From NCBI RefSeq assembly GCF_011927665.1, contig NZ_JAATJA010000005.1, positions 1 to 64,000 of the forward strand: a DNA stretch of 64,000 nucleotides, written 5' to 3'. Position numbers and translations under genes: made by a program. Below the pieces are notes generated by a model. That model did no database searches. It saw only the letters and a program-made list of their open reading frames with translations, and was not told the DNA's origin. Within the stretch, counting starts at the first letter, position 1. Each line of letters starts with the position of its first letter. Positions 55,058-56,627 of the stretch are shown here, one piece after another. Source of the stretch: Desulfobaculum xiamenense. Lineage in GTDB: Bacteria > Desulfobacterota > Desulfovibrionia > Desulfovibrionales > Desulfovibrionaceae.

Positions 55058-55414
55058 ATGCATATTCTGCTGGTCGAAGACGAATGCATCACGCGCGAAA
55101 GTGCACGCCTGTCCCTTGAGGACAGAGGCTACACTGTCACCGCCGTCGAAAACGGCAAGCGGGCCATCGAGGCGCTCTGCGCCCATCCCTGCGACCTCGT
55201 ACTCATGGACATCAAGATGCCCGTCATGGACGGCATGGAGGCCGCCCGCAAGATCAGAAGCGAGTTGACCTGCGGCACCGCCATCCCGATCATCGCCCTC
55301 ACCGCCTACAACAGCCGCGACTTCGACGACTACCGCGCCGCAGGCTTCACCGACTGGATCGAAAAGCCCTACAACAGCAACGACCTCGTCCGAAAAATAC
55401 GCGAACTCACTTAA
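55058..55414 (+). CDS. single-domain response regulator
   Basis: A 118-residue stand-alone receiver (CheY-like). VEDEC acidic pocket, phospho-Asp in LVLMDIKMPVMDG, Thr in IALTAYN and Lys in EKPYN. No output domain. It may take phosphate from one of the orphan kinases of this window, but none is adjacent on the same strand. ATGs upstream (55031) give slightly longer forms. Confidence 0.9.
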   Translation: MHILLVEDECITRESARLSLEDRGYTVTAVENGKRAIEALCAHPCDLVLMDIKMPVMDGMEAARKIRSELTCGTAIPIIALTAYNSRDFDDYRAAGFTDWIEKPYNSNDLVRKIRELT

Positions 55415-55504: not shown

Positions 55505-55531
55505 TAAACCCCGCGCCCAAAATGCCGATTC
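55505..55531 (+). promoter_or_regulatory. sigma-28 (FliA)-like promoter
   Basis: TAAACCCC, 11 bases, GCCGATTC; the FliA consensus is TAAAGTTT-N11-GCCGATAA. It lies 51 bases before the 98-residue repeat protein gene. The -10 matches 6 of 8, and the TAAA and spacing are exact. Confidence 0.6.
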
Positions 55532-55581
55532 AGCATGATGAGGCGTCGTTTTCGGTTTTTCCCGCAAGGGAGGAAGCATCC

Positions 55582-55878
55582 ATGAGCAGCTTCAGCATCG
55601 GGTCGGCGAGCGCATCCCCGTTCGTATCCAAAAACACGTTCGGGGCCGCCGTCGTCACTAAAACAATCGACACCATGAACCAGTCTGGCACAGCTTCGGC
55701 CAATGCACTCGCGCCGACGGACAAGACCACCTTCGGCGCACAGGTCGTCAGCAAGACGCTGGACTACATGAACCAGGGAGCTTTGGGAGGGAAAAGCGAC
55801 CACAGCTATGATTTTCAGAAGAGCGTCCTTGGAGCCGCATACTCCGGCAAGGGCTCCCTCTTCTCGAAGATTGCATGA
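55582..55878 (+). CDS. small internally repeated protein, possibly motility-related
   Basis: A 98-residue protein rich in Ser, Ala, Thr and Lys. Two similar blocks stand out: KNTFGAAVVTKTIDTMNQ (about 17-34) and KTTFGAQVVSKTLDYMNQ (about 49-66), 12 of 18 identical. I recognise no named family with certainty, though small motility-associated proteins share the helix-forming look. AGGGAGG before the ATG, a sigma-28-like promoter upstream and a terminator downstream make it a single-gene unit. No signal peptide or membrane segment. Confidence 0.82.
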   Translation: MSSFSIGSASASPFVSKNTFGAAVVTKTIDTMNQSGTASANALAPTDKTTFGAQVVSKTLDYMNQGALGGKSDHSYDFQKSVLGAAYSGKGSLFSKIA

Positions 55879-55914: not shown

Positions 55915-55947
55915 AAAACCCCGTCAGGCTGGGCCTGACGGGGTTTT
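55915..55947 (+). terminator. terminator of the repeat-protein gene
   Basis: AAAACCCCGTCAGGC / GCCTGACGGGGTTTT stem with a TGG loop, then CTC. Confidence 0.88.
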
Positions 55948-56039: not shown

Positions 56040-56324
56040 CTATTCCTCGTCCTCGTCCAGATCGATGAGGCCCTTGGAACCAGCGAACGCGACGAACTTT
56101 CCGAGGGCCTGCTCGCCATCGGAGAAGACCTCGATGATCTCGTTGGCGGAGCTGCCGCCATAGACGTTGTTCACGAAATCCTTGATGCCGAGGGCAACAG
56201 CCATCTGCACAAGCTGCTCGTATTCCTCGGTTTCCGTCAGGAGTGCGTAAAGGCCTCCCTCCAGCTGCTCAAGAAGCTCTTCCTTGTTCATCTCCTCAAG
56301 CGGCAAGCTTTCTTCCGTCACCAT
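56040..56324 (-). CDS. small acidic hypothetical protein
   Basis: A 94-residue, strongly acidic, helical protein beginning MVTEESLPLEEM, with an acidic tail DLDEDEE. AAGGAG lies seven bases before the ATG. No domain recognised. A GCCGAAAA at 56350-56357 on the minus strand resembles a sigma-28 -10, but the -35 is poor. Confidence 0.68.
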   Translation of the reverse strand: MVTEESLPLEEMNKEELLEQLEGGLYALLTETEEYEQLVQMAVALGIKDFVNNVYGGSSANEIIEVFSDGEQALGKFVAFAGSKGLIDLDEDEE

Positions 56325-56627
56325 GCGACACTCCTTGGGGCACATTTCGTTTTCGGCTCTACAGCCGTACAATTGCTTCAAAACTCGTTTCCGGCGTCAT
56401 CGGCACCGCAAATGCGATGTTGCACTCAGAGCGAGTGATTACTCCATATCAACAAAAAACGCCATACGCTCCGACAAATAGTCGAAAATGAATGCTACAC
56501 CGTGAAATCACGAATCATTCACCGTCATGCAACAGGGTTTTCCCCCGCCACACAACGTTTTTTCCTTCCTCCACCCGCCGACTCAAACACGTATGCCACT
56601 CAAAAAACATGGCAAACGCCAACACAC
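56325..56627. other. AT-richer intergenic region
   Basis: About 300 bases between the 94-residue gene and cbiM. Several A and T runs, visibly poorer in GC than the genes around it. No reading frame with a ribosome-binding site and no tRNA; no clear terminator for cbiM. Confidence 0.5.

Follow-up and report, generated by a model that had tools for sequence, protein, structure and literature searches.

Several small proteins that accompany the flagellar system offer the closest described comparisons for the gene considered here. FlaG (PF03646) is usually encoded beside flagellin or fliD, FlxA (PF14282) is of the coiled-coil type, and FlgM is a small exported protein of the flagellar regulon. 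At the level of regulation, a regulon of 16 genes has been predicted for FliA (sigma-28) of D. vulgaris, in which a strain deleted for fliA has no flagella (PMC3944678). In E. coli, expression of flxA depends on FliA, although the gene is reported to be dispensable for motility, and both flxA and modA are described as FliA-dependent with no obvious flagellar function (PMC4183435). YjfB (PF14070; B. subtilis) is an uncharacterised small protein that forms a sub-module with sigma-28 in the flagellar superoperons of other phyla (PMC11607428).

The window, i.e., the whole 64,000-nucleotide stretch of Desulfobaculum xiamenense DNA analysed here, contains a gene for a 98-residue protein which invites comparison with each of these. 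Like FlaG, it is a small gene, and the flaG of its own genome has nearly the same promoter; however, the two proteins show no sequence relation. It recalls FlxA, a small FliA-dependent protein of unclear use (PMC4183435), but does not match it in sequence. It likewise recalls FlgM as a small protein associated with the flagellar regulon, but a Pfam match to FlgM is found in none of the 51 members of the family alignment (A1). The features of the locus are as follows:

55505-55512, plus strand: -35 element of a sigma-28-type promoter, TAAACCCC, read directly; homologues have TAAAG here
55513-55523, plus strand: N11 spacer between the promoter elements, read directly
55524-55531, plus strand: -10 element of the sigma-28-type promoter, GCCGATTC, read directly
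55566-55573, plus strand: ribosome-binding site AAGGGAGG, read directly, 8 nt before the ATG
55582-55878, plus strand: coding sequence of the 98-aa family protein, an open frame with its stop codon at 55876-55878
55630-55683, plus strand: block 1, KNTFGAAVVTKTIDTMNQ, residues 17-34, from sequence and alignment; predicted helix 17-34 (low-confidence AlphaFold)
55723-55776, plus strand: block 2, KTTFGAQVVSKTLDYMNQ, residues 48-65, from alignments; predicted helix 48-65 (low-confidence AlphaFold)
55804-55875, plus strand: C-terminal module SYDFQKSVLGAAYSGKGSLFSKIA, residues 75-98, from the alignment of 51 members
55915-55947, plus strand: intrinsic terminator hairpin, from folding, with an A-tract, a 15-bp stem, a 3-nt loop and a T-tract

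A sequence-only reading of this DNA had described a 98-residue gene closed by its own terminator, and both parts of that description hold: the open frame spans 98 codons, and the hairpin following the stop codon is strong (-28.4 kcal/mol for the folded 56-nt stretch, z -5.25, with none of 200 shuffles as stable). The gene is probably well translated, judging from its ribosome-binding site and its homologues. The A and T tracts of the hairpin would also serve a convergent gene on the minus strand. The next probable downstream gene is indeed convergent with the window gene, and an acidic 113-aa frame with no Pfam match lies in that orientation at 56040-56381 (minus strand). This hairpin was missed by a simple terminator scan, probably because the T-run sits within the stem. 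By a simple scan across the family, a terminator follows the gene in 12 of 52 members as against 2 of 260 control stretches; hence, a downstream terminator is no general feature of the family by this measure, though its frequency is above that of the controls. On the upstream side, the plus-strand frame 55058-55414, which ends 90 bases short of the promoter, encodes a free-standing receiver protein of the CheY type (PF00072, E 1.9e-25); its position next to the gene is not conserved in the other loci.

The promoter had been read as TAAACCCC-N11-GCCGATTC, a FliA form with exact spacing, and the sequence does read so: the core TAAA and GCCGAT are exact, the -10 element stands 15 nt after TAAA, and the outer letters differ from the consensus. 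The position of the box given earlier is also right, while its distance from the ATG at 55582, previously put at 51 bases, is 50 nt as counted here. In homologues, the -10 element is mostly GCCGATAA/C/G. Taken by itself, a single instance of this kind proves little, as the bare pattern occurs in the genome at a frequency close to chance (with a loose gap allowed, 14 matches against 9 for the pattern in reverse); the window box stands above chance because it is conserved in front of homologues. The same genome encodes FliA (G000:C1:767893-768543, E 4.9e-74, over the cut-off) and carries a near-identical box, TAAACCCGTGGACAAAATTGCCGAT, 59 nt before flaG. Its flagellin at L139 is preceded by TAAAGTTT-N12-GTCGATAC. 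Elsewhere in this genome, the locus L185 (G000:C4:190500-194500) encodes a 172-aa coiled-coil, weakly FlxA-like protein (E 0.002), whose gene starts 44 bases after an exact TAAA-N15-GCCGAT box and is a probable further member of the regulon. At L006 (G000:C1:1351588-1354612), a 397-aa receiver-plus-TPR protein starts 27 bases after a sigma-28-type box.

Across the family, a box scoring at least 9.5 of 11 precedes 36 of 83 non-redundant members, whereas 60 scrambled consensuses averaged 0.25 such members and never exceeded 3; with the threshold at 8.5 or above, the count is 54 of 83 against a scrambled mean of 5.0. Most of the boxes end 39-56 nt ahead of the start codon, and 44 of the 54 do so within 30-60 nt. 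Additionally, in a control drawn from the same loci, none of 113 other genes reaches 9.5, as compared with 26 of the first 54 members. The expectation that a sigma-28 box would precede each homologue is thus borne out in the majority, but about a third of the members lack a recognisable box. These cluster by genus (g39, g37, g22 and g26), Solidesulfovibrio being among the groups concerned. In g39, whose named relatives are Desulfovibrio sp. A2 and Nitratidesulfovibrio, four flagellin copies likewise have weak boxes only, which suggests that some of the absences may reflect a shifted consensus. The D. vulgaris-like homologues covered here are also without the box. Outside the order, each of two f40 members has a GCCGATA-type box at a distance of 38-39 bases, its -35 element being poorer.

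The family itself is real, unnamed and centred on the Desulfovibrionales. Searches of GTDB contigs recovered 28 related loci with 45-72% identity over the matched segments, nearly all of them titled Desulfovibrio, Pseudodesulfovibrio, Humidesulfovibrio, Nitratidesulfovibrio, Solidesulfovibrio and kin. A family match was found in 25 of 39 near relatives (E<=1), and 80 of 150 genomes across the order match A1 at E<=0.01, the safer count being 79, given that the match in G106 (E 0.007, within a 592-codon frame) is probably spurious. A draw of 297 genomes from the phylum added only four convincing cases from outside the order. For the window protein, neither NCBIfam nor Pfam gives a curated match, its Pfam matches all lying below threshold; the family has no relative of solved structure, and no phage or viral relatives were found. 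Five members of A1 weakly match PHROG 21215, of unknown function (best E 3.9e-5), and ten weakly match DUF5858. In the Solidesulfovibrio loci L029 and L035, the family gene is preceded by a frame whose final residues resemble its own tail (...FASGIGSLTDTKA and ...FASGVGSLTDKKT), which suggests a tandem, diverged paralogue.

Inspection of the protein confirms the two 18-residue repeat blocks seen in the initial reading, with 13 of 18 positions identical between them. However, the double block is a variant rather than the definition of the family: in the non-redundant set of 83, two blocks occur in 38 members and a single block in 39, the remaining 6 being poor fits to the block pattern, and in the alignments it is block 2 that single-block members retain. 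Within A1, T59 is invariant and V56, L60, N64, Y76, F78, V82, L83 and G91 are near-invariant. AlphaFold gives low-confidence models (pLDDT 53 and 60); that of the window protein (pLDDT 53) has three main helices between Ser/Gly-rich stretches. Neither a signal nor a membrane segment can be made out by eye. Further, cysteine is nearly absent from the family (2 in 7,674 residues, or 0.03%), as it is from flagellins of the same clade (0.04%), compared with 1.18% in neighbouring proteins. This depletion fits export via the flagellum, without being proof of it, and also fits a flexible cytoplasmic protein.

The family is restricted to genomes with flagellar genes. Of the 150 genomes of the order, 132 encode FliA over the curated cut-off and 134 have PF00771, a domain representing FlhA or its injectisome homologue. 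The co-occurrence with flagellar genes that had been anticipated is borne out: the family is present in 80 of the 132 genomes with FliA and in none of the 18 without it (p 3e-7), and in 80 of the 134 with PF00771 and none of the 16 without it (p 2e-6), both values being uncorrected for phylogeny. Four genomes without FliA (G063, G110, G134 and G154) have only a weaker class of PF00771 (E about 1e-230), perhaps corresponding to an injectisome without flagella. The reverse relationship does not hold, as 54 of the 134 genomes with PF00771 lack the family, and the sole congener searched (G001) also lacks the gene; that many flagellated genomes are without it indicates that the family is not essential to flagella. 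One genome (G070) has the family gene on the same strand as the cluster flhB-flhA-flhF-flhG-fliA-X-fliL-Y and about 560 nt downstream of it; no box can be recognised before this copy. Flagellar genes are not the neighbours in most loci, and beyond clade-level synteny no conserved gene partner is seen across loci. Among the neighbours identified by eye are a MazG-like gene upstream in ten loci and, in two f40 genomes, a small upstream gene with an HGKGTGTLRR-type motif (Smr-like).

Together, the family-wide box and the restriction to genomes with FliA and FlhA support the earlier assignment of the window gene to the late flagellar class, and its membership of the FliA regulon is well supported on comparative grounds. 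The likely explanation is that this is a single-gene FliA regulon member whose small, mostly helical, cysteine-poor product acts at the filament stage. Transcription by FliA would follow from established knowledge of this promoter form. As FliA would be active once the hook is finished, the gene would be switched on together with flagellin, flaG and the flxA-like gene, and its product would act at the stage of filament formation. In the most likely mode, a partner in the export or assembly pathway would be bound by the C-terminal helix and by the helical block KxTFGAxVVxKTLDxMN, of which flexible Ser/Gly-rich linkers carry one or two copies. The protein would itself be exported through the flagellar channel or travel with channel substrates; taken by itself, export is a tentative lead that draws on cysteine composition, and is less likely than not. 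The window protein is probably a helper of swimming, although a FliA promoter does not prove such a role: the FliA-dependent flxA is reported to be dispensable for motility (PMC4183435). Nothing points to a role in chemotaxis specifically.

A separate question, concerning ancestry and compatible with the above explanation, is whether the family is a highly diverged, block-duplicated branch of YjfB sharing its function. PF14070 (YjfB_motility) is the top Pfam match of the window protein, at 13.6 bits and E 0.07 against a gathering cut-off of 27 bits, and a sub-threshold match to it recurs in 9 of the 51 members; tested with a YjfB profile, a quarter of the single-block members (5 of 20) exceed the 99th percentile of shuffled sequences. 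The two share a short, mostly helical form with almost no cysteine and an occurrence in flagellated genomes. In both, one conserved helix precedes a tail of the form G-x-G-x-x-(L/I)-(D/N) (GxGxxLDxxV-like), and single-block members are similar to YjfB in size. Further, one genus (g35) that lacks the family has a YjfB-like protein of 60-74 residues (L107, L146-L165), whose genes are preceded by sigma-28-type boxes, mostly about 36-58 bases upstream. Elsewhere, YjfB accompanies sigma-28 in flagellar superoperons (PMC11607428). Of these g35 proteins, 8 of 16 match PF14070, the first of them below the cut-off, and many probably go unannotated on account of falling below it. Over the 150 genomes, the family and the YjfB-like proteins do not overlap apart from one probably spurious weak match, and the situation in g35 looks like a replacement of the former by the latter, albeit in what is essentially one lineage. 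Against common ancestry, profile-profile comparison of the family with the YjfB-like proteins of the phylum is not significant (probability 5.5%, E 0.007), and neither is that with the g35 set (0.8% probability), whereas the g35 set itself matches the YjfB-like set at 97.8%. Unlike YjfB, this family has the distinctive, often duplicated KTLDxMN block and the conserved YDFQKxVLG module. Membership of PF14070 is not accepted, on the basis of the sub-threshold score and the non-significant profile comparisons, and a distant branch relationship is possible but doubtful. Somewhat unlikely, too, is the stronger proposal that this protein adds a hitherto unrecognised late-class substrate or component to the flagellar export and filament machinery of sulphate reducers, and that the YjfB-like protein would be interchangeable with it at one step of filament assembly.

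The main functional rival to a filament-stage role is that the gene is transcribed by FliA but plays no part in swimming, its product using the regulon as a cue of the planktonic, motile state and acting elsewhere. The descriptions of flxA and modA as FliA-dependent with no obvious flagellar function (PMC4183435) provide a precedent, and the scarcity of flagellar neighbours and the many flagellated genomes without the family point the same way. However, the strict absence of the family from genomes without FliA or FlhA, the location close to the fliA operon in G070 and the flagellin-like cysteine depletion argue against it, and this alternative is considered unlikely. An anti-sigma factor of the FlgM type, or another regulator of FliA in a feedback loop, would accord with a small, probably flexible and helical, possibly exported protein behind a FliA-type promoter and with the fliA linkage in one genome, but the lack of any FlgM match among the 51 members makes this very unlikely. 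Finally, an ordinary small gene behind a chance promoter match, as the near-chance frequency of the bare pattern and the divergent outer letters of the window box might suggest, is strongly disfavoured by the dozens of diverged homologues that keep the box with its spacing and distance, and by the flaG box of the same genome.

The claim of a late flagellar gene now extends from one site to a family-wide pattern, limited by the box-less genera. Flagellar regulons still contain small conserved proteins with no assigned role, such as YjfB (PMC11607428), and the present family offers a defined sequence set together with a promoter signature, and a genus in which a YjfB-like protein appears to take its place. 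It would add a marker of flagellar competence for genomes of the Desulfovibrionales. If the two are indeed interchangeable, the family and the YjfB-like protein would represent two solutions to one step of filament assembly.
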